This document shows, one piece after another, positions 37,059-60,916 of a DNA stretch of 64,000 nucleotides. The position numbers were made by a program, and so were the translations under genes. Positions within the stretch are counted from its first letter, which is position 1. Each line of letters starts with the position of its first letter. Location of the stretch: positions 46,001 to 110,000 of the forward strand of contig NZ_OW485601.1 in NCBI RefSeq assembly GCF_937425535.1, written 5' to 3'. Source of the DNA: Rhodovastum atsumiense (GTDB lineage Bacteria > Pseudomonadota > Alphaproteobacteria > Acetobacterales > Acetobacteraceae). Below the pieces are notes generated by a model, which worked only from the letters and a program-made list of their open reading frames with translations, was not told the origin of the DNA and searched no databases.

Positions 37059-38390
37059 TCAGTCCTCCAGCACACAGCCTCCGCCGGCCTGCTCACCGCG
37101 GGCGACCTGGTGGACATACGCCATGACCAGGAGATTGCAGGCGCCCATCATGACGAAGGGCGCGAACGGGCCGATCCGGTCGAACAGCACGCCGCCCGCT
37201 TCCAGCAGGACGACCATGCCGAGCCCCCCCACGGCATTGAGCGCCCCCATCACCGCCCCGCGCATGTCCTGCGGCGCCTCGTCGAAGGCGATCACATCCG
37301 GCGCCAGCAGCGCGCCGGCCTGCCCCAGGGCGATCAGGGACATCGGCAGCAGCACCAGCCAGCCGAAGGGATTGACCACCAGCCCCATCGACACGAAGCC
37401 GACCGCCGAGACCGCCATCCCGATGCCGATGGCATTCAGCCGCCCCAGGCGATCGACCACCCGCCCCCAGCCCAGGCTGGTCAGCATCAGCAGCAGACCG
37501 AGCAGGCCGAGCACCAGGCCGGCATGGGCGGCCGCCTGTTCCTGGCTCCTGCCGGCCAGTTCGGCGAAATAGATGGTCCACAACATGGTGAACAAGCCGA
37601 CCATGGCGACGTTGCCGCGTGCCAGCAGGGCCGCGACCAGCGCCACCCGCAGGCGCGGCCGGTGCCGCACCAGATCCCCGAGCGCCTGCCAGGGAATCAG
37701 GTGCCAGCCCCCCCGCCGCGGTGGCGCGGCGCGCCCGTCCGGCCCGGCCGCGATGCCGCCCAGCAGGCCGGCGGCCAGCCATGCACCGGCCAGGGCCAGC
37801 GCGGCGTTGAACAGCATCACCAGGGTGATTCCGGCATGGCGCGGCATCTGCATCACCACGGCGAACACCAGGGTGCTGCCAAAGGCCATCATCGAGGTCG
37901 CATTGGACATGCCCCGCGCCCGGCCCTCCCGATCGGTGAAATCCCCGGCGAGAATGACCAGTTGCGGCCAGATCGCGCAGCCGCCCAGCGCCATCACCAT
38001 GCGCGCGACGAAATAGCAGGCGACACCCCCGAGCCCCAGCGCCGCCCCGAGCGTGGCACTGAACGGCGCCAGCAGCGCACCCGCGGCGCCGACCAGGAAG
38101 CCGCCCACCAGCACCGGCACGCGGCCGCAGCGGTCGGACAGGGCCGCCGCCCCCGCCACCACCAGCAGCGTCAGCACTTCGGCGGCCACGGCGAGGCTGG
38201 CATTGACCATGCCGGCACTGTCGAGGGAAACGCCGAGCACCCGGCGCAGGAACAACGGCTGCATGGCCGTCGCCAGGGTGATGAACATCATCGCGACCGC
38301 GCCGACCAGATAGAGCGCGTTCCACTGCCGCGAGGTCGGCAGCGCCTGCGGATCGGCAGGCATCGTCGCCGGAAGGGAGGGATACGCCAT
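37059..38390 (-). CDS. mamH: MamH-like major facilitator (second copy)
   Basis: 443 residues, about 12 membrane helices. The MFS signature loop is ALSDRCGRVPVLVGG after helix 2. It is clearly paralogous to the protein at 47298-48665: both share W-NALYL, TLATAMQPL, LTMLWTIYFA-type segments and GQAGALLAPD near helix 10. MamH in model magnetotactic bacteria is a magnetosome-membrane transporter involved in iron supply. No ferric reductase domain is attached, so it is not MamZ. It is the last gene of the minus-strand magnetosome operon, 12 bp after mamO. Confidence 0.85.
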   Translation of the reverse strand: MAYPSLPATMPADPQALPTSRQWNALYLVGAVAMMFITLATAMQPLFLRRVLGVSLDSAGMVNASLAVAAEVLTLLVVAGAAALSDRCGRVPVLVGGFLVGAAGALLAPFSATLGAALGLGGVACYFVARMVMALGGCAIWPQLVILAGDFTDREGRARGMSNATSMMAFGSTLVFAVVMQMPRHAGITLVMLFNAALALAGAWLAAGLLGGIAAGPDGRAAPPRRGGWHLIPWQALGDLVRHRPRLRVALVAALLARGNVAMVGLFTMLWTIYFAELAGRSQEQAAAHAGLVLGLLGLLLMLTSLGWGRVVDRLGRLNAIGIGMAVSAVGFVSMGLVVNPFGWLVLLPMSLIALGQAGALLAPDVIAFDEAPQDMRGAVMGALNAVGGLGMVVLLEAGGVLFDRIGPFAPFVMMGACNLLVMAYVHQVARGEQAGGGCVLED

Positions 38391-38402
38391 GTCCTGTCCG
38401 GA

Positions 38403-40418
38403 TCAGTGGCCGCCGATGAACATCCGCACCGCCACCGCCAGCATCAGTGCGGAGAAGATCGCCTTCAACGGCCGGCGCGGCGCCAGCCGGGTCAGATGCG
38501 CGCCGACGATGCCGCCGATGAACGAGGCCGGGATCAGCACCAGCGCCAGGGTCAGCGGTGCCGCCCAGTCGATCAGGCCGGTGCTGACACCGTGGGAGAA
38601 GCCGAGGATGGTGCCGGTCAGCGAGGCGCACAACACCAGCGCCGCGCTGTTGGCGATGGCGTTCTTCAGCGGCACCTTGCTGATGTAATGCTGCAGCGGC
38701 ACCTCCACCACGCCGCCGGTGATGCCGAGGATGCCACTGATCACCCCCATGGGCAGCCCCAGCAGGGCCGAGGGCGCCAGCTCTCCCGCGCCCAGGCCGG
38801 ACAGGCCGGATGTCCGCTCGCGCGGCTCGTCATCCTCCTCGGCACCCGGGCGTGGCGCCGCCGCCTGGGCCGCCCCCTGCCGGGACAGCAGCAGCTCGTC
38901 GGGGGAGTTGGACCATGCCTCATGCGCGCCCTTGATTGCAATCAGGGTCGCGAACATCCCCAGCAGGACCTCGACCAGGCGATCGCCGATGGCATTGCCG
39001 ATGAAGTAGCCCGCCACCACCCCCAGCATCGCCCAGGGCGCCAATGACCGGACCTTGTCCCACATGATCAGGCCATTGCGGTCATGCTTCAGGGTCGAGG
39101 CGCCGTAGACGAAGATGTTGGTGAGGTAGGCCACCGGCCGGATCAGGAACAGGCCGTAGCCGAAGAACATCATCATGCCGGCGACCAGGAACACGCCGCC
39201 GCCCATGGTCATCATCCCGCCGATCACCCCCTTGACGATCGCCAGCAGCATCAGCCCGAGCAGGTCCCGGAGCGCGAACCCGGCGATCCGCGTGCCCAGG
39301 GCATGGGCGCGATCGGGCGAGGGCAGCAGGCCCGGCGCCACCGCCAGGGCACCGCTTCCCGGCGGCCCGTTGCCCGCGGCGATGTTGCCCGCGGCGATGG
39401 GGCCGCCTTCCTTCCCGCCCCCGGCCCGTGCCCGCTCGGCCGCGACCTGATTGGCCGCGCGCAGCCACCAGGCCGCTGCCCCGCCCAGGGCCGGGCGTCC
39501 CGCCGGATCCGGCACGCCCGGTCCCTGGCCCGCCCCGGCCGTCGCGACCGCAACGGCCGGCCCAGGCGTGGCGGAGGCGGCCGGAACCATGCCCGCCGCC
39601 CCGGCCATCCTGAACCTGACGACATCCTGGAAATGCGCGTCGATCACGTCGGCCGGCACGACATAGCCGCGGACCGCGCCGCCGGCCTCCTGGACCGCCA
39701 GCGCGATCCCCAGCAGCGCTCCATCCCGGTTGATGACCGGGCCACCCCCCTGTTCCCAGGACGTGACGGCATCGGTCGGACGCAGATGGGCGATGGTCAC
39801 GCCGTCGATCGAAAGCTCGGTCGGCAGGGCCGACATCGTGCCGATCCGGTACACCGGCGTGCCCTGCTCGCCCTGGCCGAAGACGAAGACCGGCTGGCCG
39901 CCCAGCCCGGTCGTGGTGTTGGCCAGGGACAGATACAGGAAACTGTCGGGCGACCTGATCTTCAGCAGCACCAGGTCGTGGGTGGGCGCGCGCTTGACGA
40001 TCTGCGCCGGCATGCTGTGCAGCCCCGAGGCCGTGCGCACCTGGACATTGATCTCGCGCAGCGCCTCGACGGCGTGGAGCGTGGTCAGCACATAGCCGCT
40101 GGCCCCGATGATCGCCCCGGAAGCGACGGCACCGCCATTGACCCGGCCGCCCTCGATCCCGACCACCGCCGGCGCGATCGCGTCGATCAGCGACATCGAC
40201 CCGGTCAGCGCCACGTTGCGCATCATGAAGTCGGTGACCGAGAGATGGTGTTCGTCACCGAAGCGATCGTCGTCCTGGTAGTTGCCCAGCACCAGCACGC
40301 CGCACAGCACCGTCACCGCCATCAGCGCGACAATCGCGGCACCGAGAATGCGCCAGGGCCGCTGGCAGAACACAATCGGGTTTTCGCCCTCCGCGACCGA
40401 TTCGTGCTGCATCCTCAT
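38403..40418 (-). CDS. mamO: MamO: degenerate trypsin-like domain fused to TauE-like permease domain
   Basis: 671 residues from ATG 40418, which overlaps the mamM stop. An N-terminal anchor (about 25-45) is followed by a trypsin-like domain with His115 (TTLHAVE) and Asp148 (THDLVLLK). The usual catalytic GNSGGP is EQGGGP, so the nucleophilic serine is glycine (224). An alanine/glycine-rich linker follows, then a membrane domain of about eight helices resembling TauE/SafE anion exporters. In model organisms MamO is a pseudo-protease that binds metal and activates MamE, needed for magnetite nucleation. The His147 next to the Asp may be the metal-binding residue. Confidence 0.92.
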   Translation of the reverse strand: MRMQHESVAEGENPIVFCQRPWRILGAAIVALMAVTVLCGVLVLGNYQDDDRFGDEHHLSVTDFMMRNVALTGSMSLIDAIAPAVVGIEGGRVNGGAVASGAIIGASGYVLTTLHAVEALREINVQVRTASGLHSMPAQIVKRAPTHDLVLLKIRSPDSFLYLSLANTTTGLGGQPVFVFGQGEQGTPVYRIGTMSALPTELSIDGVTIAHLRPTDAVTSWEQGGGPVINRDGALLGIALAVQEAGGAVRGYVVPADVIDAHFQDVVRFRMAGAAGMVPAASATPGPAVAVATAGAGQGPGVPDPAGRPALGGAAAWWLRAANQVAAERARAGGGKEGGPIAAGNIAAGNGPPGSGALAVAPGLLPSPDRAHALGTRIAGFALRDLLGLMLLAIVKGVIGGMMTMGGGVFLVAGMMMFFGYGLFLIRPVAYLTNIFVYGASTLKHDRNGLIMWDKVRSLAPWAMLGVVAGYFIGNAIGDRLVEVLLGMFATLIAIKGAHEAWSNSPDELLLSRQGAAQAAAPRPGAEEDDEPRERTSGLSGLGAGELAPSALLGLPMGVISGILGITGGVVEVPLQHYISKVPLKNAIANSAALVLCASLTGTILGFSHGVSTGLIDWAAPLTLALVLIPASFIGGIVGAHLTRLAPRRPLKAIFSALMLAVAVRMFIGGH

Positions 40419-41374
40419 CCCTCGCCGGCGACGGATGGCAACCGGGCAAGGCCGGACCGCCATTGCGAATGGAGCTCGCGATTCTTCCCGATCTCGGCCT
40501 CGCAGATTTCGGCGTCGACGGTCAGCGACCCGATATGGCGCACCCGCTCGGCCACCCGTCGCTTCACCTGTTCGCAGATGCCGTGCGCCTGCTCCACCGT
40601 CATGTCGGCATCGACCCCGATCACGATCTCCGACCAGATCTGGTGCCCCACCAGCCGTGTCCTGAGCGATTTCACCTCACGCACCCCCTCGGTGGCGCCG
40701 ACCACGCCGTGGATCACCGCGCGCATCCCGGGATCGAGGCCCCGATCGAGCAATCCCTTGGAAGAATCCCAGAAGACCTTGAAGCCCAGCAGGCTCAGGT
40801 CGAGCGCCTCGAAGAAAGCCACCACGGTATCGATCCAGGGAAGGCCGAAGAGATGGGCGGCAACGATGCCCAGCCCGGCAACGCCCGCGGTGATGGCGTC
40901 GGAATGGTGGTGGCGGGCCATGATGCGCACCACCGGGCTGTTGCTTTCGATGGCGACGCAGCTCGCGTAGTAGAATCCGTAGACATAGGCGAGGACCGAG
41001 ACGAACGCCGCCCAGACCGCGATCAACCGGGGCGCCACGTGGTGTTCCACCACGAGCAGGGTGTTGACCGCATGATACAGCAGGTACACGGCCAGGAACA
41101 GCAGCACCAGGCCGAACACCAGCGACATGATGAATTCGATCTTGCCGTGTCCATAAGGATGTTCACGGTCGAGCGGCTTGCGGCCAAGCGTGACGCCGAC
41201 CACGACGAAGACCGAGGTCGCCATGTCCTTGAGCGCGTACATCGCCCCGACCACCAGCGCCTGCGACCCTGCCACCAGGCCGACGAGCAGGTTCATCAGG
41301 AACAGGGCGAAGTTGCCCGCCAGACCAAACCAGCCAATGTATTTCGAGCACGTCAGGCAATTCCGGTATCTCAT
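40415..41374 (-). CDS. mamM: MamM: magnetosome cation diffusion facilitator
   Basis: 319 residues. CDF membrane domain with the metal site visible as DMATS in helix 2 (LKDMATSVFVVVG) and HHHSD in helix 5 (ARHHHSDAITAG), plus EHPYGHGKIEF in the loop. The C-terminal cytoplasmic domain of about 95 residues follows (VGHQIWSEIVIGVDADMTVE). MamM moves iron into the magnetosome lumen and stabilises MamB. The close match to magnetospirillum MamM and the location between mamL and mamO fix the identity. Confidence 0.95.
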   Translation of the reverse strand: MRYRNCLTCSKYIGWFGLAGNFALFLMNLLVGLVAGSQALVVGAMYALKDMATSVFVVVGVTLGRKPLDREHPYGHGKIEFIMSLVFGLVLLFLAVYLLYHAVNTLLVVEHHVAPRLIAVWAAFVSVLAYVYGFYYASCVAIESNSPVVRIMARHHHSDAITAGVAGLGIVAAHLFGLPWIDTVVAFFEALDLSLLGFKVFWDSSKGLLDRGLDPGMRAVIHGVVGATEGVREVKSLRTRLVGHQIWSEIVIGVDADMTVEQAHGICEQVKRRVAERVRHIGSLTVDAEICEAEIGKNRELHSQWRSGLARLPSVAGEG

Positions 41375-41389: not shown

Positions 41390-41626
41390 TCATGGGCCAA
41401 AATCCACGTCGCCATCCTCGAACGCCGCCTGCCTGCGACGGCGCCTTCTGGCCAGGATGCCAAGCCCGGCCAGGAAGCCCAGGCTGAAGGCGGCAAGGAT
41501 CACCAGGGCCAGCGGAACAGCCACCGGCCGCCCCAGCAGCAGCGATATTTCCACAAAGTTCAGATTTTGCGAGATGAAAAGGAAAATCAGGAAGCCGACG
41601 AGGATCCAGATTACCCGCATCGGCAT
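41390..41626 (-). CDS. mamL: MamL: small magnetosome membrane protein
   Basis: 78 residues from ATG 41626, preceded by GGAAGG. Two transmembrane helices (VIWILVGFLIFLFIS and LALVILAAFSLGFLAGLGIL) are followed by an arginine-rich tail ARRRRRRQAAF. This matches MamL, a LapA-like protein required for bending the inner membrane into magnetosome vesicles. The position between mamK and mamM is the classical one. Confidence 0.9.
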   Translation of the reverse strand: MPMRVIWILVGFLIFLFISQNLNFVEISLLLGRPVAVPLALVILAAFSLGFLAGLGILARRRRRRQAAFEDGDVDFGP

Positions 41627-41752: not shown

Positions 41753-42850
41753 TCAGTCTTTGCCGACGACATCGCCGAGCTTGTCCCAGAACTGCAGCGG
41801 CAGTTCCTGTCCCATCATCAGCGCCCCCGCCGCACCGTCGAAATCGGCGTCACGCGCGACGGTCACCTTGACATCGCCATAGGCGCGCAGACGGTGAGCG
41901 ATCATTCCGGCAAGCCCGGTGATGCGCGACCCGCCCCCGGCGAGGAGGATGTTCTGCAGAAGCTTCGGCAGATCGTCAGGGGGAAAGCGCCTGATCAGGA
42001 CATCCGCCGCCTCGACGACATCGGGAACGATGGCCTCGCAGGCCTGGCGTATTTCCTCGGTGATGTCGCACTGGACCGGCAGGCCATTGGCGCGCAGTTC
42101 CACCCGGATCGGATCGCGCGGCGTCTCGCCCACGAAGGCATGGGCCTCCTTGATCGTGCGCGCCGTGGTCTGGCTGACCCGCACATCCGGATAGCGCTGG
42201 ATGATCGCCTCGGCCAACAGGGTATCGATGTAGTTGCCGGCCTTGTTGATGGTGGCCTGGTCGTCCGGCGATGGAATCATGCCCTTGAGCACGCAAATGT
42301 CCACCGTCCCGCCTCCGATGTCGATGACCATTGCATTGACCAGTTTGCCATAATGATAGGCCACCAGGAATGGTTGGGAAATCACCACTGCCGCATTGAC
42401 GAGTTCCTTGGCGATCTGCAGGACCGCCGACCGGTTGCCCAGGCTCGCGCGGGCGGGCACGCCGATCACGGCGCGGATCTCCTGGCCCGGCTGGGGGGCG
42501 GTGGCGTCCACGGCAAATTTGAGGATCTGCCGGGCCGCCACGAGATCCTGTGGATTGGCCTCGTTGATCACGCCATCCTTCAGGGGATAGCGCAATTCCA
42601 GAAACGATTGCTTCTCGAGCACATCGTCGCCAACGGCGAAGGGCGCGCCCAGCAGGCGAACGCCGATCACATCCCGCGGATAGCCAACCACGGAGTGGAA
42701 TATTTTGCGTTCACCGCGACTGGAAACAACCGACGTGCGCGAGGTGCCAAGGTCGATGCCGAGGATCAGCCGGCTTGCCTCATCTCCCGTGGCCTTGCCT
42801 GACTCGCCAGCCGCATCCCGGGTGGCAATGTCGGTCTGTTCATCACTCAT
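41753..42850 (-). CDS. mamK: MamK: actin-like filament protein
   Basis: 365 residues. Actin-fold motifs are LILGIDLGTSRTSVV (phosphate 1), AMVIDIGGGTVDICV (phosphate 2) and ILLAGGGSRITGLAG (adenosine). The N-terminal tail of about 25 residues is polar and longer than usual. MamK polymerises into filaments that align the magnetosome chain and interacts with MamJ, encoded just upstream. This is not MreB: the sequence is the MamK-type bacterial actin and sits in mam order. Confidence 0.93.
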   Translation of the reverse strand: MSDEQTDIATRDAAGESGKATGDEASRLILGIDLGTSRTSVVSSRGERKIFHSVVGYPRDVIGVRLLGAPFAVGDDVLEKQSFLELRYPLKDGVINEANPQDLVAARQILKFAVDATAPQPGQEIRAVIGVPARASLGNRSAVLQIAKELVNAAVVISQPFLVAYHYGKLVNAMVIDIGGGTVDICVLKGMIPSPDDQATINKAGNYIDTLLAEAIIQRYPDVRVSQTTARTIKEAHAFVGETPRDPIRVELRANGLPVQCDITEEIRQACEAIVPDVVEAADVLIRRFPPDDLPKLLQNILLAGGGSRITGLAGMIAHRLRAYGDVKVTVARDADFDGAAGALMMGQELPLQFWDKLGDVVGKD

Positions 42851-43230: not shown

Positions 43231-44916
43231 TCATGTCGGCCTCCCAGGCGGCTGCGGCGATGCCGGGCGCTCCCTTGGATGGTGAGAGGACTTCCCGGGC
43301 TTGCCACGCATCTCCCCGCGCCAGCCCTCGCGGCCCGGCTTCTTCCCCGGCGCTTTCGGGGCCCCTGCCCCGGACAGGACCGCCCTGGCGCCTTCGGCGA
43401 TGCTGATGCCGATGCCCCGGATCAGGGCCAAGGCGTTGTGCAGGCCGTGATCGACTGTCATCGCCATGCCCCGGAGCATGCCCTCGACAGGGATCCGACG
43501 CACAGGGAGGGACTTGCGCGTCCCACCCGACGGATACGACGACCGCACCCGGGACGCCGGGGGCCCCTTGCGGGTCGGCTTCACCCCATTGCTCCGCGAC
43601 CGTGCGCGGGAAGCCGGCGCCGCTGGCCGGGCCGCCGTCCCATCTTCCACGGGGCGTACAGCCACCTCCGCTGCCATCGCCACGGCTTTCGCCACCGGCC
43701 CGGCCGTGGGGACCTCCGGTGATGGATGAACCTCTTCCGCCACGTCCTCCGATGCGGACGCCGCCGTCGCCTCGGCTTCAGGCGCCGACCCGGCCGTGGG
43801 GACCTCCGGCGGTGGTTGAACCTCTTCCGCCACTTCCTCCGATGCGGACGCCGCCGTCGCCTCGGCTTCAGGCGCCGCCCCGGCCGTGGAGACCTCCGCC
43901 GTTACCTCTTCCGGAACAGATGCCGCCGTCGCCGTCCCGTCTTCCACGAGCGGTACAGCTTCCTCCGCTGCCACCGCCACGGCTTCCGCCACCGGCCCGG
44001 CCGTGGGGACCTCCGGCGGTGGTTGAACCTCTTCCGCCACTTCCTCCGATGCGGACGCCGCCGTCGCCTCGGCTTCAGGCGCCGACCCGGCCGTGGAGAC
44101 CTCCGCCGTTACCTCTTCCGGGACAGATGCCGCCGTCGCCGTCCCGTCTTCCACGAGCGTTACAGCTTCCTCCGCCGCCACCGCCACGGCTTCGGGCACC
44201 GGTTCGACATCCGGCGTCACCTCTTCCGGTTCAGGCGCCGCTCTTGCCTCGGCCTCAGGCAACGGGACGGGCATGGTGGGCTCCGGTGACACCGCGCCCT
44301 CCGTCACGGCCGCTTCCCCTGGCCCTGACGCCGCCACGGCATTGCCGTCTTCCGGGGATGACGCGGGCCCCTCCGCCGGCTCGGGCGGCATCGCCTCCGC
44401 CTCGACGGCCGGAGATGCCGCCGCATGATCGGTCGCCGTGGCAGGAAGGGGGGCTGGCTCTGTCGGAGGCGGCCCCGCACTCACTGCCGCACGAAGAGGG
44501 GGCAGCGCGCATAAAAGGGCCAGTTCCGCGTCGGACAACGGCGATTGCACGGTCTCGCGCCGGCGCACCGCGGCCTGTTGCGGCGGCCCGGAGGCAGCCC
44601 CGGCCGGATCGTCCTTGTTGCCGGTGTTGCCGCCCCCCTCGTCCGTGGACGCCGACGTGGCGGCCAGCACATCGGCCCAGCTCTGCGCCTGCAATCCGGC
44701 CGCCGGACCAGCTTCCGTGGCGGCGGCAACCGCCTCCTGTGACGCGACAGGCTCCACGGGGCCGGAATCCTGGTCTTCCTCCCGGGACATCGACTCAGCC
44801 CCGGCCTCCGGCTCGCCATCGGTCAACCCGGGCTCCGGTTCCACCTCGGCTCTCCGTTCAGAGGCACCCGAAGCGAGATCGGGAGGCAACATCCTGGCCC
44901 TTTTCCGTTTTGCCAT
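43231..44916 (-). CDS. mamJ: MamJ-like acidic repeat protein
   Basis: 561 residues, no signal peptide and no clear membrane segment. Low-complexity Glu/Ala/Val/Pro-rich central region (about 200-430) made of two alternating repeat units, then a strongly basic stretch (SRARSRSNGVKPTRKG) and a C-terminal region with a hydrophobic Gly/Ala helix (ALALIRGIGISIAEGARAVL). MamJ in Magnetospirillum is an acidic repetitive linker between magnetosomes and MamK filaments. Its repeats evolve fast, so identity here rests on the position between mamE and mamK, acidity, repeats and the C-terminal hydrophobic patch. A different chain-linker protein with convergent composition is possible. Confidence 0.7.
   Translation of the reverse strand: MAKRKRARMLPPDLASGASERRAEVEPEPGLTDGEPEAGAESMSREEDQDSGPVEPVASQEAVAAATEAGPAAGLQAQSWADVLAATSASTDEGGGNTGNKDDPAGAASGPPQQAAVRRRETVQSPLSDAELALLCALPPLRAAVSAGPPPTEPAPLPATATDHAAASPAVEAEAMPPEPAEGPASSPEDGNAVAASGPGEAAVTEGAVSPEPTMPVPLPEAEARAAPEPEEVTPDVEPVPEAVAVAAEEAVTLVEDGTATAASVPEEVTAEVSTAGSAPEAEATAASASEEVAEEVQPPPEVPTAGPVAEAVAVAAEEAVPLVEDGTATAASVPEEVTAEVSTAGAAPEAEATAASASEEVAEEVQPPPEVPTAGSAPEAEATAASASEDVAEEVHPSPEVPTAGPVAKAVAMAAEVAVRPVEDGTAARPAAPASRARSRSNGVKPTRKGPPASRVRSSYPSGGTRKSLPVRRIPVEGMLRGMAMTVDHGLHNALALIRGIGISIAEGARAVLSGAGAPKAPGKKPGREGWRGEMRGKPGKSSHHPRERPASPQPPGRPT
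43640..44200 (-). repeat. Tandem repeats inside the mamJ-like gene
   Basis: Two near-identical units alternate at DNA level. Unit B, about 90 bp (APEAEATAASASEEVAEEV plus a proline-rich link), occurs about three times. Unit A, about 114 bp (EAVAVAAEEAVPLVEDGTA plus VPEEVTAEV), occurs about two full times plus a degenerate copy. The order in the protein is A-B-A-B-B-A'. Near-identity of copies suggests recent unequal recombination. Confidence 0.8.
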
Positions 44917-45001: not shown

Positions 45002-47002
45002 TTATGGCATTACAACGAAAAACTCCCGATTGTTGCGCGCCATGCGCATCGGTATCTCGACCTTTCCGGTCTGCGCCTGGATGGCCTGGTTGGCCTGGGC
45101 CGCGGACGCAGTCGGCCACCCCCCGATTTCAAGCACGATGTCGCCCGCCTGCAGGCCAATCCGCTGGGCCGGGGAGCCGGCCACCACTTCAGCGATCACG
45201 GCCCCCTGCAACCGGGACCCTGCCGGCGCCCCGGGCGGCAGGAACGGGGCAAAGGTTTCGATTTCCAGGCCCTTCCAACTGAACTCCGTCGGCACCTTCG
45301 GCGCCGGAGCGGCAACCGCAGGGCCGGTTCCGGCAACCGGCATCGACAGGGGCGCCCCCGGCCGGGACATCACCGGCAGGCGCAGCTCCTGACGCGTGCC
45401 CCCCTGCACCACGGACAGACGCAGCCCCTCGCCGGCCCGGCAGCGCTGCACCATGGCCCACAGATCCCGCGGGGCGCGGATGCGCCGGCCATTGACCTTC
45501 TCGATCACCATCCCGGCCTGCAAACCGGCATCGGCCGCTTCCGTCCCCGGCGTCACCTCCGTCACCGCCACCCCCTTGCCTTCGGGTTGCGCCAGCTGCG
45601 GCGCCATCGCCGCGGTGACCGGCAGGATGGCGGCCCCCAGGACACGTATCCCCCCGCCCCCCGCCCCGGCCGGCTCGCCCGCGGCGGGCAGGGACGGCAT
45701 GGCCACGTTCAGGGCCGCGCTGGCCGGAGGCCGGGCAAAGCTGACGCCGCCCCCCGCCACCGGCCTGCCCTGGGCCGCCGCCCCGGGACGGGGAATGATC
45801 TGGTGGCAGATGGCGCAGTCCATGGTCTCGCGCCCATCGCGGTGCAGCGGCGTCACCCCGGCCAGGATCGGCGGCCCGGCCATGCCGACGCCAGGCCGGG
45901 GCGCCGGCCCGGGCAAGGCGGCAGGCACCCCGACCGCCGTGGCCGCGGCCTCAGGCAGCCGGTCCAGCTCATCGAGCAGAAACCGACGGGCCTGGTTGCT
46001 GGGAATGGCAAAGCCAACCCCGGAAAAGGCACCGGTGGGCGTGTAGATGGCGGTGTTGACCCCGATCACCTCGCCGGCGCGGTTGACCAGCGGCCCGCCG
46101 GAATTGCCCTGGTTGATCGCGGCATCGGTCTGCAGCAGGTCCCGATGCGTGGTCCCCTCGATCACCAGCGATTTGCGCCTGGCGGAGACGATGCCGCGGC
46201 TGACCGTCATGTCCAGGCCGAAGGGGCTGCCGATGGCGATCACCTCCTCGGCGATCCTGACCTGGTCGCTGTCGCCGAGCACGACCGGCACCAGCGGCGC
46301 CTGGGGCTGCACCTTGACCAGCGCCAGATCCACCGAGGCATCGAGCTTGATCACCTCGGCCGGATAGCGCACGGCCCCGGTCTCGTCGAACACGGTCACG
46401 ACCATGGCGTTGCCGCCGCGCACGACATGGTAGTTGGTCAGGATGTAGCCGTCGTTGCGCACCACCATGCCGGTGCCGATGCTGTCGAGCATCGCGCCCA
46501 CGGTCGGCGTGGCGAACTGCAACGCACCGTCGGGGGGCGAAGCCGGCACGGCGTCCTTCGCGGCAGGCGCCGGATCCACCGGCACGCCGGCGACCCGCCC
46601 GGCCATGATATCCGGCTGCGCCCGCCCGATCGCGACGATGCTGCCGCGCAACTGCGCCGCGATCGTCGCGAAATCCCCAGGCGTCCCGGCGAAAGCCACC
46701 GGCCTTGCCATCACCTCGGCGCGGCGCCCCTGGCCGGGCTCCGCCAATGGTGCCGGCGGCCCGGCCAGCGGTGCCGGTCCCGCGCCCGCGCCCGCGCCCG
46801 CGGCGGGCCGCGCAACAGGTCCGCCCCGCCCGGCGGCAAAGCCCGGAGGCCCGGGGGTCCGAAGCTGGTACCAGGCCATTCCGACGAGCGTGCAAACCAC
46901 CACGAACGCCATGAGGAACAGGTATTTCCTTAATCCACGGGCACAGTCCTTCGGAGTCTGCTCGTTGTCCTCGATGTCGATATCGGTCTCGTCGGGTGCC
47001 AT
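45002..47002 (-). CDS. mamE: MamE: magnetosome HtrA-like serine protease with magnetochrome
   Basis: 666 residues. Order: a short cytoplasmic acidic tail; a membrane anchor (FLMAFVVVCTLVGMAW); a Pro/Ala/Gly linker; a trypsin-like domain with an intact triad His192 (NYHVV), Asp225 (DASVDLALV) and Ser301 (QGNSGGPLV); one magnetochrome haem site CAICH (396-400) preceded by TPLHRDGRE; and two PDZ domains (about 440-525 and 575-660). MamE sorts magnetosome proteins and cleaves itself, MamO and MamP to trigger crystal growth. Only one CxxCH is present, whereas MamE of model strains has two. Confidence 0.95.
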   Translation of the reverse strand: MAPDETDIDIEDNEQTPKDCARGLRKYLFLMAFVVVCTLVGMAWYQLRTPGPPGFAAGRGGPVARPAAGAGAGAGPAPLAGPPAPLAEPGQGRRAEVMARPVAFAGTPGDFATIAAQLRGSIVAIGRAQPDIMAGRVAGVPVDPAPAAKDAVPASPPDGALQFATPTVGAMLDSIGTGMVVRNDGYILTNYHVVRGGNAMVVTVFDETGAVRYPAEVIKLDASVDLALVKVQPQAPLVPVVLGDSDQVRIAEEVIAIGSPFGLDMTVSRGIVSARRKSLVIEGTTHRDLLQTDAAINQGNSGGPLVNRAGEVIGVNTAIYTPTGAFSGVGFAIPSNQARRFLLDELDRLPEAAATAVGVPAALPGPAPRPGVGMAGPPILAGVTPLHRDGRETMDCAICHQIIPRPGAAAQGRPVAGGGVSFARPPASAALNVAMPSLPAAGEPAGAGGGGIRVLGAAILPVTAAMAPQLAQPEGKGVAVTEVTPGTEAADAGLQAGMVIEKVNGRRIRAPRDLWAMVQRCRAGEGLRLSVVQGGTRQELRLPVMSRPGAPLSMPVAGTGPAVAAPAPKVPTEFSWKGLEIETFAPFLPPGAPAGSRLQGAVIAEVVAGSPAQRIGLQAGDIVLEIGGWPTASAAQANQAIQAQTGKVEIPMRMARNNREFFVVMP

Positions 47003-49894: not shown

Positions 49895-49925
49895 TCGGGA
49901 TGCTCGCTGCGGCTGACGGATGGGG

Positions 49926-52091: not shown

Positions 52092-52112
52092 AATGGCGAA
52101 TGTCCAGCTAAG
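52091..52112. repeat. Right terminal inverted repeat and target duplication of the IS
   Basis: The right inverted repeat (52091-52107) begins at the last base of the transposase stop codon and is followed by CTAAG (52108-52112), identical to the left duplication. Confidence 0.85.
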
Positions 52113-52463: not shown

Positions 52464-52937
52464 ATGGCCACCCCTCAAACGGCGGCTGCAGCAGCCGTAC
52501 CTCCGGTCGGCGAAGTGGAAAATGAGGTTGCCCGCCAGATGGCGGCCGCAAAAGGAACCGGCGGCGCTAATATCGCGGGTGCAAAAATAGCTGGCACCAA
52601 GACATTGGGGGGGGCCGCCGGCAAAGGCGCCACCATTGTCGCCGGCAAGGGCACCGGGCTGGTCGGCCATGCCGCGGCACCGGGAGGATCGGCGCTGACC
52701 GGCGCCAAGGCCCTGGCCACCGGCGGCACGATCTGGACCGGAAAGGGACTGAGCCTCGGATTGGGGATCGGCCTCGGGGCCATGGGCCCGCTGCTGGTCC
52801 TGGCCGGGGGAGCCGCCATCGTCTATGGCTGCGTCCAATACTACAAGCAGCGCGAACAGCATGCGGAACCGGGCGAGGAAGGCGAAGAGCTGAACGATGC
52901 CTTCTCCGATGACGAACCCACGCTGTCCCGGAGCTGA
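52464..52937 (+). CDS. mms6: Mms6: magnetite crystal-shaping protein
   Basis: 157 residues with AGGAG 10 bp upstream. A long Ala/Gly/Lys-rich N-terminal region leads to the diagnostic segment GGTIWTGKGLSLGLGIGLG, a transmembrane helix, and an acidic C-terminus (EPGEEGEELNDAFSDDE). In Magnetospirillum the mature Mms6 peptide has the same Leu-Gly repeat and iron-binding acidic tail, and controls crystal morphology at the magnetosome membrane. It is first in the plus-strand block and is followed after 3 bp by mmsF. Confidence 0.92.
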   Translation: MATPQTAAAAAVPPVGEVENEVARQMAAAKGTGGANIAGAKIAGTKTLGGAAGKGATIVAGKGTGLVGHAAAPGGSALTGAKALATGGTIWTGKGLSLGLGIGLGAMGPLLVLAGGAAIVYGCVQYYKQREQHAEPGEEGEELNDAFSDDEPTLSRS

Positions 52938-52940: not shown

Positions 52941-53270
52941 ATGATCCCGGGTGAGGAGGATGCCGAACCAACGGCAGCGACCCGGCCCATACTTCTGGCG
53001 ATCATGAGCTATCTGGGCATTCTCTGCTTCATCCCGCTCCTGTTCGGAAACCGCTCTCCCTTCGTTCAGTTCCACGCACGCCAGGGCCTGGTAATCTGGG
53101 CGTGGGGCGTGCTTGCCCTGATGGCTTTGTCGTTGCCCGGATTCGGCGGCTGGTTCTTCCACTTTTCCGCCAACCTGATCCTGATCCTGTCGGTCGCCGG
53201 CGTGATTTCGGTTCTGTTGGGAAAAACCTGGAAGTTTCCCCTGATTTACGATCTGGCTGCGAAGTTGTGA
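52941..53270 (+). CDS. mmsF: MmsF-like magnetosome membrane protein
   Basis: 109 residues, three hydrophobic helices with the family core IMSYLGILCFIPLLFG, FVQFHARQGLVIWAWG and GVISVLLGKTWKFPL. It closely resembles MmsF, the master regulator of magnetite crystal maturation in model strains, where mms6 and mmsF are also neighbours. A paralogue lies at 48681-49004. The following 147-bp gap before feoA holds no gene. Confidence 0.92.
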   Translation: MIPGEEDAEPTAATRPILLAIMSYLGILCFIPLLFGNRSPFVQFHARQGLVIWAWGVLALMALSLPGFGGWFFHFSANLILILSVAGVISVLLGKTWKFPLIYDLAAKL

Positions 53271-53417: not shown

Positions 53418-53744
53418 ATGTCATGGTTCAATCGTGATGCCCGGGAATTACCAACATTGTTGCCGCTGCCTTTGACCCTGGCCGACCTCGAGCCGGGTCA
53501 ACACGGCGTCGTACTCGGCATCACCAGGGAAAATGAAACATTGAAGCGCCGGTTGACCGCGCTTGGAATGATCCGCGGCGCCGAGATCGTGCTCGACTGG
53601 GTCGCGCCGATGGGCAATCCCTGCGCCTACAGGTTGCGGGGCTATCGCCTGTCGCTGCGCAACGAAGACGCCCGGAACGTGCTGTTGTCGGCCGCGTGGC
53701 AGCCGGTGCCCCGCCCGCACACGCCCCGCCTGCACAGGCCCTGA
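53418..53744 (+). CDS. feoA: FeoA: ferrous iron transport accessory protein
   Basis: 108 residues. SH3-like FeoA domain with LADLEPGQHGVVLGI, the RRLTALGMIRGAEI segment typical of FeoA, and a C-terminal SLRNEDARNVLL. It supports FeoB in Fe(II) import. Its place between mmsF and feoB inside a magnetosome block suggests the dedicated magnetosome feoAB1 pair and not the housekeeping copy. Confidence 0.92.
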   Translation: MSWFNRDARELPTLLPLPLTLADLEPGQHGVVLGITRENETLKRRLTALGMIRGAEIVLDWVAPMGNPCAYRLRGYRLSLRNEDARNVLLSAAWQPVPRPHTPRLHRP

Positions 53745-56080: not shown

Positions 56081-56956
56081 GTGAAACAGGAGAAACTGAT
56101 CAGTGTGACAATGCTCGCGGTGGCTACGCTGGTGGTGATCGGCGTCGGGACCCAGGGCTTCGGCTGGTTCCGGCGTGCGACGGACCCATCGGCACAGGGA
56201 ACCGCCTCCGATCTGCTGGGCGGCGGTCTGGGCCTCGAGGGGCTGCGGCGCGCCGTGCCGGTTGCCGCGGTCAACGCCACGCCCCCGGTCATGGCGGCGG
56301 CAGTTCCCGTTCCGGTGGCCCTGCCGCTTGATCCGGACGTCACGCCATCGTCCCAGGTCGCGCCCAACTACCTTCCCGCCACGGTGCAACTGTTCGAAGT
56401 GCACTGGCAGGGACTGGATGGGCGCGAGCTGACCGCCGAGCTGCGCCGGAAGCTGCGTTACCCCCAGGGACTGGAGGGAATCCTGGTGGGTGAAGTGACG
56501 CTCACGGCGGCACGGGCCGGCCTGCTCGGGGGCGATGTCATCATCGCCGTCGCCGGCCAGCCGGTCACCACGCTCGCCGGCTTCCAGGACGCGACCCGTG
56601 CCATTGCCAACCTGAAGCAGACGACAGTGACGTTCCTCCGCAAGACCCGGTCGACAGAGCCGGCGAGCAACCGCTTCACGATGGTCCGGCAGACGCTGAT
56701 GATCGTCGGCGACCGGGAGCTGGGATTCGCCCAGGCGGAAGGGGCCCCGATGATCAAGGCCGGGGATCCCAGGCCCCATGCCAGCCGCGGCCCCTGCACC
56801 CAGTGCCACAACATCGGCACCGGCTTCGAACTGCGCCCCGACCCCGACCTGATCACCTTGCCGCCGCCGCCGATCTCCTCGCGTCTCGCTGCCGGCAGCA
56901 ATCGCCCCCACGAGGATCGCGGCCCCTGCGAGGCCTGCCACGTGATCACCCGGTGA
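56081..56956 (+). CDS. mamP: MamP: magnetosome c-type cytochrome (PDZ + two magnetochromes)
   Basis: 291 residues with a GTG start at 56081. An N-terminal membrane anchor (VTMLAVATLVVIGVG) and a linker precede a PDZ domain (about 128-200). Two magnetochrome haem motifs CTQCH (239-243) and CEACH (283-287) are each preceded by the typical proline/histidine leader (DPRPHASRGP, SNRPHEDRGP). MamP is an iron oxidase that sets the Fe(II)/Fe(III) ratio for magnetite. It begins the second half of the split mamAB operon, directly after feoB and the Cys-rich gene. Confidence 0.95.
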   Translation: MKQEKLISVTMLAVATLVVIGVGTQGFGWFRRATDPSAQGTASDLLGGGLGLEGLRRAVPVAAVNATPPVMAAAVPVPVALPLDPDVTPSSQVAPNYLPATVQLFEVHWQGLDGRELTAELRRKLRYPQGLEGILVGEVTLTAARAGLLGGDVIIAVAGQPVTTLAGFQDATRAIANLKQTTVTFLRKTRSTEPASNRFTMVRQTLMIVGDRELGFAQAEGAPMIKAGDPRPHASRGPCTQCHNIGTGFELRPDPDLITLPPPPISSRLAAGSNRPHEDRGPCEACHVITR

Positions 56957-56982: not shown

Positions 56983-57633
56983 ATGAGCCCAAAGATACCA
57001 TTTCCCGATGCCGTCGGTCTTTATTGGGACTACTCCTCGACGCTGGTGAGCCGGTGGACCAACCACCTGATCGCCGGATTCCAGTCGGCCTTCTCCATCG
57101 ATGACGACACCCGCTTTGCCTATTACCGCCAACGGGGCATCGAGCACGCCAGGGAAGGCAGGTTCGCCCGTGCCTTGCCGCTGCTGGACGTCGTGGCCGG
57201 GATCCAGCCCGAAGATGCGACCATCATGTTGTACCGCGGCCTGTGCCTGCTGCGCCTCGGCAGCAAGGAGGCGGGAATGGCGTTGCTGGAAGAGGCCCGG
57301 ACACGGGCAGGCAGCGATCCCGCCATCGCCAAGATCCTCGGCATTGCCTATGCGCAGATCGAGGAGCACGAGCGCGCTTTGCCGCTGCTGGCGTTGGCTG
57401 CGGAAGTTTTCCCCGACAATTTCAGCGTGCAGTTTCGCCTGGGATCGACCCTGGACAAGCTCGGCCGGTACGCCGAGGCAATCCCCGGCTTCGAGCGCGC
57501 CCTGCAGTTGCGGCCCTATGCGGTGAAGGTGATGCGCCGCCTCGCCTATGCCCATGAGCAGCTCGGAGAACGGGAAAAGGCCATGAGCTATTTCAGTCAG
57601 GCCGACCGGCTTGATGACACCAGGACCGATTGA
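56983..57633 (+). CDS. mamA: MamA: TPR scaffold protein of the magnetosome surface
   Basis: 216 residues from ATG 56983, with GAGGGAG upstream. About five tetratricopeptide repeats are visible, for example ARALPLLDVVAGIQPED, ERALPLLALAAEVFPDN and AEAIPGFERALQLRPYA. Length matches MamA (217 in Magnetospirillum). MamA self-assembles on the outside of magnetosomes and helps activate them. It follows mamP in the standard order. Confidence 0.93.
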   Translation: MSPKIPFPDAVGLYWDYSSTLVSRWTNHLIAGFQSAFSIDDDTRFAYYRQRGIEHAREGRFARALPLLDVVAGIQPEDATIMLYRGLCLLRLGSKEAGMALLEEARTRAGSDPAIAKILGIAYAQIEEHERALPLLALAAEVFPDNFSVQFRLGSTLDKLGRYAEAIPGFERALQLRPYAVKVMRRLAYAHEQLGEREKAMSYFSQADRLDDTRTD

Positions 57634-57677: not shown

Positions 57678-58538
57678 ATGGCAAAACCTCCCCCGGACCC
57701 ATCGAACGACGACACGTTCGGGATCCAGTTGCATCGCCTCCAGCGTTCCGAGCGGCTGCTGTCCGAACTCTATCGCCCCCCCGCCAAGCGGCCGCAGCGC
57801 CCGGTCCGTTGGGTGCGGACGCTGCTGGTCATCTCGCTGATCACCGTCTCCGTCGCGGTGAGCGTCGTGTATTACATGATCAATTCCTTCATCACCCTGC
57901 GGGAGGAAACGCTCTCCCGCTCGGCCAATCTCGATGCGGCCCTGCAGCGGCGCAGCAACCTGCTCGCCAATCTGGTCAAGCTCACGCTCAATCATGCGGC
58001 GCTGGAGCATGCGGTTTTCTCGCACACCGCCGAGATGCGCACGGAACTCGCCAGGAACGGCCAGTTGCCCGAAGCCATCGTCGAAGCGCTCATCCGCGAA
58101 GGCAGCAAATCGACCGCCGTGCCGACAGCCCCTTCCCCCGGCTCTGACAAGCCCGATGATCCGGGTCATGCCAACTGGCCGGACATCCTGAAAACCCTTT
58201 CCGGGGACAAGGGGCTCGAAGGGATGATGGGCCGCCTGCTGGCGATGGCCGAGCAATATCCCAACATCCAGTCTTCGGAAACCTACAAGCAGCTCATGAC
58301 CGCGCTGGTGGAGATGGAGGACCGGATCACCGAACGCCGGATCGAATTCAATAGCGCGCTCCGCCAGTACAACACGGCAGTGACGTCGTTTCCCTGGCGC
58401 TACCTGGCCATGGCGGGCAATTTCCGGCGGATCGAGTACAACCAAGCGACAGCATCCGCGATGACCGCAACGGAGATCACACCCGAGCTGTTCCAGCAAC
58501 TGGTCCCGCTGGTACGCACCATGGGGGATCGCAAATGA
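57678..58538 (+). CDS. mamQ: MamQ: LemA-like magnetosome membrane protein
   Basis: 286 residues. An N-terminal cytoplasmic tail and one transmembrane helix (LLVISLITVSVAVSVVYYM) are followed by a LemA-like helical domain with ALQRRSNLLANLVKLT, the MTALVEMEDRITERRIEFN segment and SALRQYNTAVTSFPW. MamQ is one of the few proteins essential for vesicle formation. Its stop overlaps the start of mamR. Confidence 0.94.
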   Translation: MAKPPPDPSNDDTFGIQLHRLQRSERLLSELYRPPAKRPQRPVRWVRTLLVISLITVSVAVSVVYYMINSFITLREETLSRSANLDAALQRRSNLLANLVKLTLNHAALEHAVFSHTAEMRTELARNGQLPEAIVEALIREGSKSTAVPTAPSPGSDKPDDPGHANWPDILKTLSGDKGLEGMMGRLLAMAEQYPNIQSSETYKQLMTALVEMEDRITERRIEFNSALRQYNTAVTSFPWRYLAMAGNFRRIEYNQATASAMTATEITPELFQQLVPLVRTMGDRK

Positions 58539-58828
58539 TCTGGACAGTCGTTTTACGCAGCGGAGCGGTTGCACCCATGATCTGGACAGCGGTGTTGCGC
58601 GGCGGCGCGGTCGCATCCCTCGCGCTGGCGGTCTTCGAACTTTACGACCAGTTCTATCGCGAGATCCGTCCGAACCGGATCTATTCCGTGGATGAAGCCG
58701 CCCGGCTGCTGCGCCTGGAGCGAAGATCCCTGGTTCGGCTGATCCGGCAAGGGACGATCCCCGGCATGAAGGTCAGCGGCCATTACCGTGTCCTGGGACA
58801 AAGCCTGTTGGATTTCCTCAAGCGATGA
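58535..58828 (+). CDS. mamR: MamR: excisionase-like magnetosome protein with duplicated N-terminus
   Basis: 97 residues from ATG 58535 (overlapping the mamQ stop), or 83 from ATG 58577. The first 14 residues (MIWTVVLRSGAVAP) are repeated as the next 14 (MIWTAVLRGGAVAS), and MamR in other strains begins with just one such motif. The rest is a hydrophobic helix and an excisionase/MerR-like DNA-binding fold (IYSVDEAARLLRLERRSLVR). MamR controls crystal number and size in model strains. Its stop overlaps mamB by four bases. Confidence 0.9.
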   Translation: MIWTVVLRSGAVAPMIWTAVLRGGAVASLALAVFELYDQFYREIRPNRIYSVDEAARLLRLERRSLVRLIRQGTIPGMKVSGHYRVLGQSLLDFLKR

Positions 58829-59745
58829 CAAGCAACCAGTGCAGGGCCTGTGGGGATCGCGTGGTCTGGTGGGGCATGTCCGCGAACGCCACATTGATGG
58901 TGTTCAAGGGCGTGCTGGGCCTGGTCAGCGGCAGTGCCGCGCTGGTCGCCGACGCGATGCATTCCGCGGCCGACGTGGTCGCCGATTGGGTGACCCTGGC
59001 CAGCGTCTGGGTCTCGAAGCGGCAGCCCGGGGAGAACTATCCGTACGGCCTTGGCAACATCCAGTTCATTTCATCGGCCGTGGTGGGCCTGATCCTGTTC
59101 GTCGGCTCGGTGGCATGGATCTACGAATCCTTCGGCAAGATCGTCAGCGGCACGCAGGAGGCGCCGTCACTGCTGGCAGTGGTGGGCGCGCTGGTATCGA
59201 TCGTGACCAACGAGATCATGTATCGTTACGAGGCCTGTGCCGGCCGCAAGAACAACAGCCCGGCCCTGATCGCGGTGGCCTGGGACAATCGTTCCGATGC
59301 CATCTCCTCGGTCGGCGTGCTGATCGGCATTGTCGTCGCGATCCTTGGCTTCCCTATTGCAGATGCCGTCGCCGCGATCTTCGTCGCCCTGATGGTCGCC
59401 AAGATCGGGCTCGACCTGAACGTCTCGGCCGTCAGGGGGCTGATGGACTCCTCGCTGGACCCCCAGACGCTGCGGACGGTTCATCGCCTGACCGCGGCGA
59501 CACCGCATGTGCAGGGCATCCGCTTCATCCGGGGTCGCAACATCGGCCAGGACATCCATCTTGAAATCAATGTCTACCTCGATGCCGAGTGCAGGGTCTT
59601 CGAGTCGGATTTCATTTGTTCGGCCATTCGCGACAAGGTTTTCGCGACTGTCGAGCATGTGCGGGAGGTGCGCGTCGGCGTGACGCCTGCACCGGTACGC
59701 CGGACGACCAGGATCGCGAAGGCCCTGCCGGGGAGCGTGCCATGA
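58825..59745 (+). CDS. mamB: MamB: magnetosome cation diffusion facilitator
   Basis: 306 residues. Starts with the typical CRACGDRVVWWGM (CxxC), then CDF helices with metal sites DAMHSAADVV (helix 2) and AWDNRSDAISS (helix 5), and the loop YPYGLGNIQFISS. A cytoplasmic domain of about 100 residues follows. MamB is both an iron transporter and a seed for vesicle formation, and works with MamM. Sequence and order (Q-R-B-S-T) are as in Magnetospirillum. ATGA overlaps couple it to mamR and mamS. Confidence 0.96.
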   Translation: MTSNQCRACGDRVVWWGMSANATLMVFKGVLGLVSGSAALVADAMHSAADVVADWVTLASVWVSKRQPGENYPYGLGNIQFISSAVVGLILFVGSVAWIYESFGKIVSGTQEAPSLLAVVGALVSIVTNEIMYRYEACAGRKNNSPALIAVAWDNRSDAISSVGVLIGIVVAILGFPIADAVAAIFVALMVAKIGLDLNVSAVRGLMDSSLDPQTLRTVHRLTAATPHVQGIRFIRGRNIGQDIHLEINVYLDAECRVFESDFICSAIRDKVFATVEHVREVRVGVTPAPVRRTTRIAKALPGSVP

Positions 59746-60326
59746 AGGCCGAGAAACTGGTTCTCCTGGTCGGGGCCGCCCTGGGCATCGCCGTGCTGCT
59801 GGCGGCGGTGATCGTCAGCGACGACGTGCTGGACGACGACCCGGACTTCGATCCCTCCGGCCGGCTGATCGCCGAGGCGGTCGGGGCCGGAGCCGGGGTC
59901 GGCACGCCTGGCCTCAATGCGCCCCAGTTGCCCGCCGAGGCGGCCGCCGGCGCGCAGATGCAGACGGTGGCCATGCAGGGCCTGGTGCCGTTCTCCACGG
60001 CCCGCACGGAGCGCTTTTCCGGGCGCGTGGTCGAGGTCAACACGCTGGGGAGCGATATCGGCTGGGGACAGGTCCATGTGCAGATCGTCGACGAGGCCCG
60101 GCGCGACACGTCCCTGGTGTCGCTGGCGCCGACCTGGTTCCTGCTGCACCTTGGCTGCACCGTGGCGCCCAATGACCGCATCTCGGGCCTGGCGTTCCGC
60201 TTCGATGCGGTCGGCCCCGATGTTCCGATCTACGCGCGCAGCGTCAGCGTGAACGGGCGTCCCTGCCAACTGCGTTCGGATGAAGGGATTGCCTTGTGGT
60301 CCAATCGGCTTGGACAGCCTCGGTGA
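59742..60326 (+). CDS. mamS: MamS: magnetosome biomineralisation protein
   Basis: 194 residues from ATG 59742 (overlap with mamB). One N-terminal anchor helix (LVLLVGAALGIAVLLAAVIV) is followed by an extracytoplasmic beta-rich domain with FSGRVVEVNTLGSDIGWGQ and a C-terminal NGRPCQLRSDEG. MamS affects crystal size in model strains; its fold resembles an inactive sortase or NTF-like beta domain. It is couched between mamB and mamT. Confidence 0.88.
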   Translation: MKAEKLVLLVGAALGIAVLLAAVIVSDDVLDDDPDFDPSGRLIAEAVGAGAGVGTPGLNAPQLPAEAAAGAQMQTVAMQGLVPFSTARTERFSGRVVEVNTLGSDIGWGQVHVQIVDEARRDTSLVSLAPTWFLLHLGCTVAPNDRISGLAFRFDAVGPDVPIYARSVSVNGRPCQLRSDEGIALWSNRLGQPR

Positions 60327-60916
60327 TCCCAAGGGAAGGAGTTGGCTGGCTTCGGCTGACGGGCTCGGCTTTCGGCAAGGCAGTCCAGCAGCACTGGCAA
60401 CGACACCAAGGCTGGCTGACGGTTTCGCTCGTTACCGGGCTGATGATCGTGATGGTGGGGCTGTTTTTCTTCACGTTCGGCCGAGCGATCTTCAGCCCGC
60501 CCCGGGACGAGTCATTGCGGGTCATCAGCGGTGGATACCTCGGTACCCTGCCCCACCCGGTCGACCCCGCGCTGTTCGACCCGGTCCTGCGCCTGTTCCA
60601 TCAGGACGCCGATTACAAGCTGATGAGGATTCGTCGCATCCCACCGGTCCAGGCAGGATCCGGAATGCCGCATCCCTATGTTGGCCCCTGCACCAACTGT
60701 CATCTTTATGTCGGAGGGCCAGGTCCGGGATCGCAATACAAGACACCGGTCGGTGCGATCATTGAAGAACTGTCACGGCTGCACAAACTGGGCCCGCCGA
60801 TCTGGCCCGATGCCCGGATGCCTCATCCGCCAGCCGGTCGCTGCATCAAGTGCCACGACATCGTCGTGAAACAACCCATCGATCCGAACGTGAGCCATTT
60901 CATCTGGCAATACTGA
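60323..60916 (+). CDS. mamT: MamT: magnetosome cytochrome with two magnetochromes
   Basis: 197 residues from the GTG at 60323, which overlaps the mamS TGA; an in-frame GTG at 60296 would add nine residues. An N-terminal anchor (LVTGLMIVMVGLFFFTF) is followed by two haem sites CTNCH (123-127) and CIKCH (174-178), each preceded by MPHP-type leaders. MamT joins MamE and MamP in the redox chain that tunes Fe(II)/Fe(III). It is the last magnetosome gene, 62 bp from the tRNA. Confidence 0.93.
   Translation: MIPREGVGWLRLTGSAFGKAVQQHWQRHQGWLTVSLVTGLMIVMVGLFFFTFGRAIFSPPRDESLRVISGGYLGTLPHPVDPALFDPVLRLFHQDADYKLMRIRRIPPVQAGSGMPHPYVGPCTNCHLYVGGPGPGSQYKTPVGAIIEELSRLHKLGPPIWPDARMPHPPAGRCIKCHDIVVKQPIDPNVSHFIWQY

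Follow-up and report, generated by a model that had tools for sequence, protein, structure and literature searches.

The stretch of DNA analysed here (the window: 64,000 nucleotides of contig NZ_OW485601.1 of Rhodovastum atsumiense, to which positions refer unless a contig is named) contains a cluster of genes for magnetosomes. It is the island of silent magnetosome genes that Dziuba et al. (2022, PMC9938234, main text) described in R. atsumiense G2-11. The 25 genes, which have open frames and would serve a magnetite organelle, likely yield no magnetosomes because their transcription is held down; an insertion sequence (IS) and read-through from a ribosomal RNA (rRNA) operon are predicted to contribute. 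The island was already known; the readings of the rRNA operon, of the IS and of compositional controls are added here. Silent organelle clusters show the fate of complex traits after transfer. If the IS and the neighbouring rRNA operon silence this cluster, its state would be simple, young and testable.

Gene content and limits of the island

The genome comprises 9 contigs (7,423,543 bases), of which the chromosome (C1) accounts for 6,482,810 bp. For G2-11, a chromosome of 6.48 Mb was reported, together with 8 plasmids and an island of 27.5 kb (PMC9938234). In the window, the island extends over 33437-60916 (27.48 kb), from mag3 to mamT, with mag1-3 included. Judging by this 27.5 kb span, the trio of kinase-, PP2C- and VWA-like genes is probably the mag123 of PMC9938234. 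Placement of the host in the Acetobacteraceae was taken from PMC9938234 and the NCBI taxonomy.

The genes are listed below. Bit scores are followed by the cut-off of the model, and percentages refer to Umea3_bin-0647, a metagenome-assembled genome (MAG) of an uncultured member of the Rhodospirillales, hereafter the Umea MAG.

33437-34411, minus strand: mag3, protein kinase-like; Pkinase 24.5 bits, under cut-off; 59% to the Umea MAG, same order
34408-35787, minus strand: mag2, PP2C phosphatase-like; PP2C_2 19.5 bits, under cut-off; 52% to the Umea MAG
35813-36718, minus strand: mag1, VWA-like; no Pfam match, distant relatives carry PF00092; 78% to the Umea MAG
37059-38390, minus strand: mamH2; NF040986, 475 bits, cut-off 300
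38403-40463, minus strand: mamO; NF040961, 707.9 bits, cut-off 800
40415-41374, minus strand: mamM; NF033615 over cut-off; 76% to the Umea MAG
41390-41626, minus strand: mamL, 78 amino acids (aa); placed between mamK and mamM; 54% to the open reading frame (ORF) in the corresponding position of the Umea MAG; no magnetosome family match
41753-42850, minus strand: mamK; NF040964 over cut-off
43231-44916, minus strand: mamJ-like acidic repeat protein, 561 aa; no Pfam match; between mamE and mamK
45002-47002, minus strand: mamE; NF040960, 566 bits, cut-off 800; one magnetochrome domain
47104-47277, minus strand: mamI, 57 aa; NF040963, 77.9 bits, cut-off 80
47298-48665, minus strand: mamH1; NF040986, 570 bits, over cut-off
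48681-49004, minus strand: mmsF-like 1; DUF4870 weak; 73% to the Umea MAG
49057-49338, minus strand: mms6-like 1; Mms6 45.6 bits, cut-off 200; MamD 39.8
52464-52937, plus strand: mms6-like 2; Mms6 59.1 bits, cut-off 200; MamD 53.4
52941-53270, plus strand: mmsF-like 2; no NCBIfam match; 65% to the Umea MAG, same order mms6-mmsF-feoA-feoB
53418-53744, plus strand: feoA; PF04023
53802-55841, plus strand: feoB; FeoB_N, Gate and FeoB_C; TIGR00437 over cut-off
56081-56956, plus strand: mamP; NF040965, 305.9 bits, cut-off 300; two magnetochrome domains
56983-57633, plus strand: mamA; NF040959, 157 bits, cut-off 200
57678-58538, plus strand: mamQ; NF040966, 234.5 bits, cut-off 250; LemA
58535-58828, plus strand: mamR; NF040990, 66.8 bits, cut-off 100
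58825-59745, plus strand: mamB; NF033616 over cut-off; 74% to the Umea MAG
59742-60326, plus strand: mamS; NF040991, 150.6 bits, cut-off 200
60296-60916, plus strand: mamT frame, start codon tentative; NF040992, 195 bits, cut-off 200; two magnetochrome domains

The best NCBIfam match was the corresponding Mam model for MamH (two copies), O, M, K, E, P, Q, B, S, T, A, R and I. The curated cut-off was passed by MamH1, MamH2, M, K, P and B. MamO, E, Q, S, T, A, R and I scored below it, yet far above any other family. Assignment of FeoA and FeoB was clear. Both Mms6-like proteins scored far under the Mms6 cut-off, with MamD nearly as good and MamG also matched. The calls of MmsF-like 1 and 2 rest on the matches in the Umea MAG and on complementation (PMC9938234).

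These searches agree in large part with an initial annotation made from the letters and a list of ORFs. The genes that it named are all open frames in the order that it gave, the best NCBIfam matches agree for the Mam proteins just listed, and the Mam calls, which it had listed as a possible point of failure, hold. Its suggestion that this may be a silent cluster reported in R. atsumiense was correct (PMC9938234). The host, which it had called Acetobacteraceae-like, is filed by NCBI in the Acetobacteraceae; a placement within a known magnetotactic lineage was not seen. It had the cluster running from 37059; the right end at 60916 stands, but the part common with magnetotactic bacteria starts at mag3 (33437). 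One Mms6 and one MmsF had been reported; both types are present, but there are two genes of each. Three features found here are absent from its account: the mag1-3 trio, the IS within the cluster, and the rRNA operon to which the transfer RNA (tRNA) gene belongs.

The seven genes that are essential in model strains according to PMC9938234 (mamI, L, Q, B, E, M and O) are all present, six of them by family match and mamL by position and relative only. A search of the whole genome for magnetochrome (MCR) domains gave 5 matches, in MamE, MamP and MamT only, and 0/14 control genomes gave any. No MamX was found in this search; MamZ and MamD were not searched genome-wide here. mamX, mamZ and mamD are missing in G2-11 and universal in alphaproteobacterial magnetotactic bacteria (PMC9938234).

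Among the best 120 of 490 relatives of mag1, rows P0098-P0183 were 57-79% identical, and the named ones include Azospirillaceae, Magnetospirillum, Magnetovibrio and Terasakiella. These carriers are magnetotactic. When 150 Acetobacteraceae genomes were searched with mag1 at 1e-30, only two others matched (39-43%). A locus of the same-genus genome G227 holds a 39% relative of mag1 and a 35% relative of mag3. The mag1-3 of the island are thus the version common to magnetotactic bacteria, beside a general version. Their role as a phosphorylation switch is a guess.

Some further observations concern single genes. A second mag1-like gene of G2-11 (38% identical) lies at C1:4560016-4560861, and mag1-like genes of other Acetobacteraceae were seen in genomes G076 (43%, one internal TGA) and G050 (39%). 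The mamJ-like gene contains long internal repeats (43614-44266; 207-bp copies, 95% alike). The start of mamR (58535-58618) contains a 42-bp near-duplicate, 81% alike, and the start codon may be the second ATG. A tRNA-Ile called by ARAGORN within mamS/mamT (60289-60387, plus strand) is not in the Rfam results and is probably false.

Insertion sequence in the control region

The two divergent operons are separated by non-coding DNA with a low content of guanine and cytosine (GC), that is, rich in adenine and thymine (AT-rich), into which an IS has been inserted. The features, none of which was given a strand as a whole, are as follows.

49339-49872: AT-rich control region, half adjoining mms6-like 1; GC 0.446
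49873-49877: 5-bp target duplication CTAAG, left copy
49878-52107: IS, 2,230 bp; DDE transposase frame at 50676-52091 (plus strand), DDE_5; passenger ORF ending at 49926 (minus strand); imperfect end repeats
52108-52112: 5-bp target duplication CTAAG, right copy
52113-52463: AT-rich control region, half adjoining mms6-like 2; GC 0.419

The IS thus splits the region between mms6-like 1 (minus strand) and mms6-like 2 (plus strand). Two further copies, on C3 and at C1:4907750, are full-length identical, and each has its own 5-bp duplication. In the left cluster, from mms6-like 1 to mamH2, most genes are poorly or not transcribed; the pair mms6-like 2-mmsF-like 2 is transcribed, as are mag1-3 and other genes (PMC9938234). 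An IS in the divergent control region is predicted to weaken the main left operon; that it lowers transcription of the left cluster is a tentative reading, short of an even chance. The IS was not found as a cause of silencing in the main text of PMC9938234. Comparison of the control region with that of the Umea MAG gave no conserved motif, only 12-bp matches at chance level.

A host silencer of the MucR/Ros type of alphaproteobacteria might also act on AT-rich foreign control regions, the IS being a passenger drawn to the same DNA. MucR can act like H-NS. Both halves of the control region are AT-rich, as is the sequence ahead of mms6 in the Umea MAG, where a 250-bp window has GC 0.38, and two ROS_MUCR genes over cut-off were found in G2-11 (C1:2616776 and C1:2315078). 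However, about 8% of the 79 host non-ORF stretches (median GC 0.645) are under 0.45 and equally AT-rich, so AT-richness alone is no mark of foreign DNA. The mms6-like 2-mmsF-like 2 pair, which borders the same region, is moreover transcribed (PMC9938234). On account of the two MucR-type genes a silencer is a serious rival, though less likely than not.

Ribosomal RNA operon at the right border

Beyond mamT, the following features were found on the minus strand.

60926-60972: conserved hairpin behind the rRNA operon with a U-poor tail, predicted terminator; -29.2 kcal/mol, z -4.8
60978-61054: tRNA-Met, last gene of the rRNA operon; ARAGORN and Rfam
61120-61234: 5S rRNA; Rfam RF00001
61362-64000: 23S rRNA, continuing past the end of the window; Rfam RF02541

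The order is 23S-5S-tRNA-Met-hairpin-mamT; mamT is encoded on the other strand, and the rRNA operon points into it. Five 16S copies are given for G2-11 in GdbMTB (PMC12805115). Five 23S matches were obtained in the genome, one of them without the tRNA; the order 23S-5S-tRNA recurs in three other rRNA copies, and the fourth match lacks the tRNA part. The unit common to the copies takes in the hairpin and ends at 60925-60929, which is 9-13 nt past the stop codon of mamT and about 50 nt beyond the tRNA. The hairpin sequence also ends two other rRNA copies. Loss of the rRNA terminator through insertion of the island was rejected, since the hairpin is still present; a consensus terminator scan does not list the hairpin at 60926-60972.

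For the right cluster, more antisense than sense RNA was reported, and the antisense RNA was attributed to a promoter of the tRNA gene (PMC9938234). Read-through from the adjoining rRNA operon would supply antisense RNA over mamPAQRBST. Because tRNA-Met closes an rRNA operon that points at mamT, the antisense RNA is somewhat more likely to originate from the promoter of that operon and to run past the hairpin than to originate from a tRNA promoter. This source was not found in the main text of PMC9938234.

State of the genes and cause of the silence

No early stop was found in the 25 frames (7,543 codons), which sets a neutral substitution bound of 0.63-0.69% per site. As the reading frames have not decayed, the silencing is probably young. 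The distance of MamO to the outgroup is 0.530 in G2-11, against a mean of 0.528 in the sister clade. MamE keeps its GNSGG motif and has one CXXCH. Loss of magnetochrome in MamE was rejected as a sign of decay: a single CXXCH occurs in 21/112 full-length rows, G2-11 included.

The essential genes had been called intact in the initial annotation. This is right as regards open frames, but not all of their products functioned in another host. MamB, MamQ, MamK, the MamJ-like protein and both MmsF-like proteins function in mutants of Magnetospirillum gryphiswaldense, and the MamJ-like protein, given as 563 aa, restored chains in a mamJ mutant (PMC9938234).

Several points speak against the silencing of an otherwise sound cluster by the IS and the rRNA operon. 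MamM, MamO, MamE and MamL, and also MamI according to the Discussion of PMC9938234, did not complement mutants of M. gryphiswaldense. The bound from stop codons holds only for frames that were picked as open. The distance to the outgroup is 0.354 in G2-11 for Mag1 (sister mean 0.321, maximum 0.331) and 0.554 for MamE (sister mean 0.541, maximum 0.548), the farthest of the group in each case; G2-11 is thus the most diverged in 2/3 proteins tested, and mild relaxation or base composition might account for this. At the left operon, 534 bp of AT-rich DNA are left between mms6-like 1 and the IS, so the operon's own promoter may be untouched. In the Umea MAG (L092 1-200), the AT-rich region before mms6 is preceded by what we take, by eye, to be the end of a transposase gene; because of this similar arrangement, an IS near mms6 need not silence. 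At the right border, the hairpin conserved in other rRNA copies may stop most transcription.

The failed complementations bear on another explanation, in which the lack of magnetosomes stems from a functionally incomplete gene set, or from hidden point lesions in it, irrespective of how it is transcribed. The non-complementing MamM, O, E and L (and I) and the missing mamX, mamZ and mamD (PMC9938234) argue for it. On the other side, the frames are open, MamE retains GNSGG and one CXXCH, a single CXXCH being seen in 21/112 full-length rows with its own included, and the non-complementation was put down to absent partner proteins (PMC9938234). Such incompleteness is a possible cause, but not one that we favour.

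The cluster might also be conditional rather than dead, being expressed and selected in its paddy-soil habitat under untried conditions. The absence of stops over the 7,543 codons and the transcription of mag1-3 and other genes are consistent with this, and the possibility was kept open in PMC9938234. However, G2-11 formed no magnetosomes in culture in several media, its cells are immotile, growth was the same without the island and a transferred cluster was rapidly lost (PMC9938234). mamX, mamZ and mamD are missing as well (PMC9938234; MamX was not found here either). A conditional cluster is regarded as unlikely.

Silencing by the IS and the rRNA operon is retained as the probable reading. 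In its strongest form, G2-11 would be a recently switched-off magnet maker: selection would have acted on the island in the Rhodovastum lineage, or in a comparable high-GC host, and the IS would have shut it down only lately, with rRNA read-through restraining the facing operon. This form is improbable. If it were true, removal of the IS and shielding of mamT from the rRNA operon would restore native magnetosomes.

Composition and origin of the island

In PMC9938234, the island is read as very recently acquired from an Azospirillaceae-like magnetotactic bacterium. The tetranucleotide correlation given there was r = 0.88 between island and flanks and 0.97 between flanks, for pieces of 27.5, 117.7 and 79.5 kb. 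Host pools of 120 and 80 kb likewise gave r 0.973. For the island without the IS, the value with the 120-kb pool was 0.887, and single 20-kb segments of the host, eight in all, gave 0.843-0.942. Against a 400-kb pool, the two 20-kb pieces of the island gave 0.872 and 0.870, 2/20 host segments were lower and the flank at 13001-33000 gave 0.868. Among host segments, the left operon was at the 16th composition percentile and the right operon at the 7th. In composition, the island thus appears to fall within the host range, towards its lower end, and the published contrast is mostly an effect of fragment length. With matched lengths, most of the tetranucleotide signal for recent transfer vanishes.

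Codon usage also argues against a recent arrival: on the host's codon-usage scale, the island genes of at least 200 aa have their median at the 24th percentile, whereas the mam genes of the Umea MAG lie at 0-1%. Seven of 23 island genes (mamJ-like, mms6-like 1 and 2, mmsF-like 2, feoA, mamR and mamT) were in the lowest 3% of the host, and the others at 9-62%. Codon usage was rejected as proof of long residence, as genes of other Acetobacteraceae score host-like too.

In a quick tree, the MamO of G2-11 groups with 15 relatives, one of them a named Azospirillaceae MamO, which is in favour of transfer. Among these 16 rows (support 100) it splits off first, as sister to the 15 others (support 96), on an end branch of 0.49 and in a tree that carries a long-branch warning; this is against a very recent transfer. 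A high-GC donor would also explain the host-like composition. Such a donor and slow adaptation are inseparable because the genes of other Acetobacteraceae also score host-like.

MamP was over the cut-off in 1/397 Acetobacteraceae genomes, which is G2-11 itself; the 396 others, including six of the same genus (80-100% complete), had none. Weak MamP matches in 387/397 genomes were mostly to the PDZ part of the model, and only scores over the cut-off were counted. Whether the island reached the species or the genus could not be said in PMC9938234; the absence of MamP in the six genus mates favours arrival in the species, or repeated loss. The case for a very recent transfer rests on gene trees and on absence from relatives, not on base composition; such a transfer is a serious candidate, though short of an even chance.

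No direct repeat of the tRNA 3′ end was found at the two borders compared, the longest exact match between 33381-33500 and 60881-61000 being 8 bp. No integrase was found among the 20 island and IS frames scanned with Pfam, in which the DDE transposase was the only mobile gene; the search was confined to these frames. No empty island site was found in the same-genus G227, whose two HSP70-like relatives are on contigs without tRNA or rRNA matches. The corresponding large HSP70-like frame of G2-11 lies in the left flank (27985-31455) and has 67-69% protein identity to these two relatives.

Comparison with known systems

The island in the window and that of PMC9938234 are the same in organism, locus, gene content, length (27.5 kb), transposase and terminal tRNA, without difference in sequence. 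The present reading departs from the published one in three respects: the antisense RNA is proposed to come from the rRNA operon, the IS is considered a possible cause, and the compositional case for recent transfer is judged differently.

CCP-type Azospirillaceae are the closest named relatives (MamO 58%, P0005; MamE 55%/60%, P0218 and P0221; Mag1 79%, P0098). The nearest sampled MamO were 57-60% identical and none was above 60% among the 7,987 scored candidates, which were those sharing most words. In CCP-1, more than 20 unrelated genes lie between the clusters (PMC9938234), whereas the G2-11 clusters are compact.

When GTDB was scanned with MamB, the Umea MAG matched at 74%, and the other matches were three distant loci. 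Besides MamB (74%), the Umea MAG shares with G2-11 MamM (76%), MamK (65%) and MamO (58%), and the orders mamPAQRBST, mms6-mmsF-feoA-feoB and mag1-2-3 (78, 52 and 59%). Its blocks are on separate contigs: mag1-3; mms6-mmsF-feoA-feoB-mamH; mmsF-mamI; mamE-K-L-M-O; and mamV with mamPAQRBST. It differs from G2-11 in its GC content (about 0.58-0.62), in mamH after feoB, in mmsF directly before mamI and in at least 4 MmsF-like genes. It also carries beside mamP a third cation diffusion facilitator (CDF) gene, mamV-like (L015 6082-7029, minus strand), which has no counterpart in the G2-11 island.

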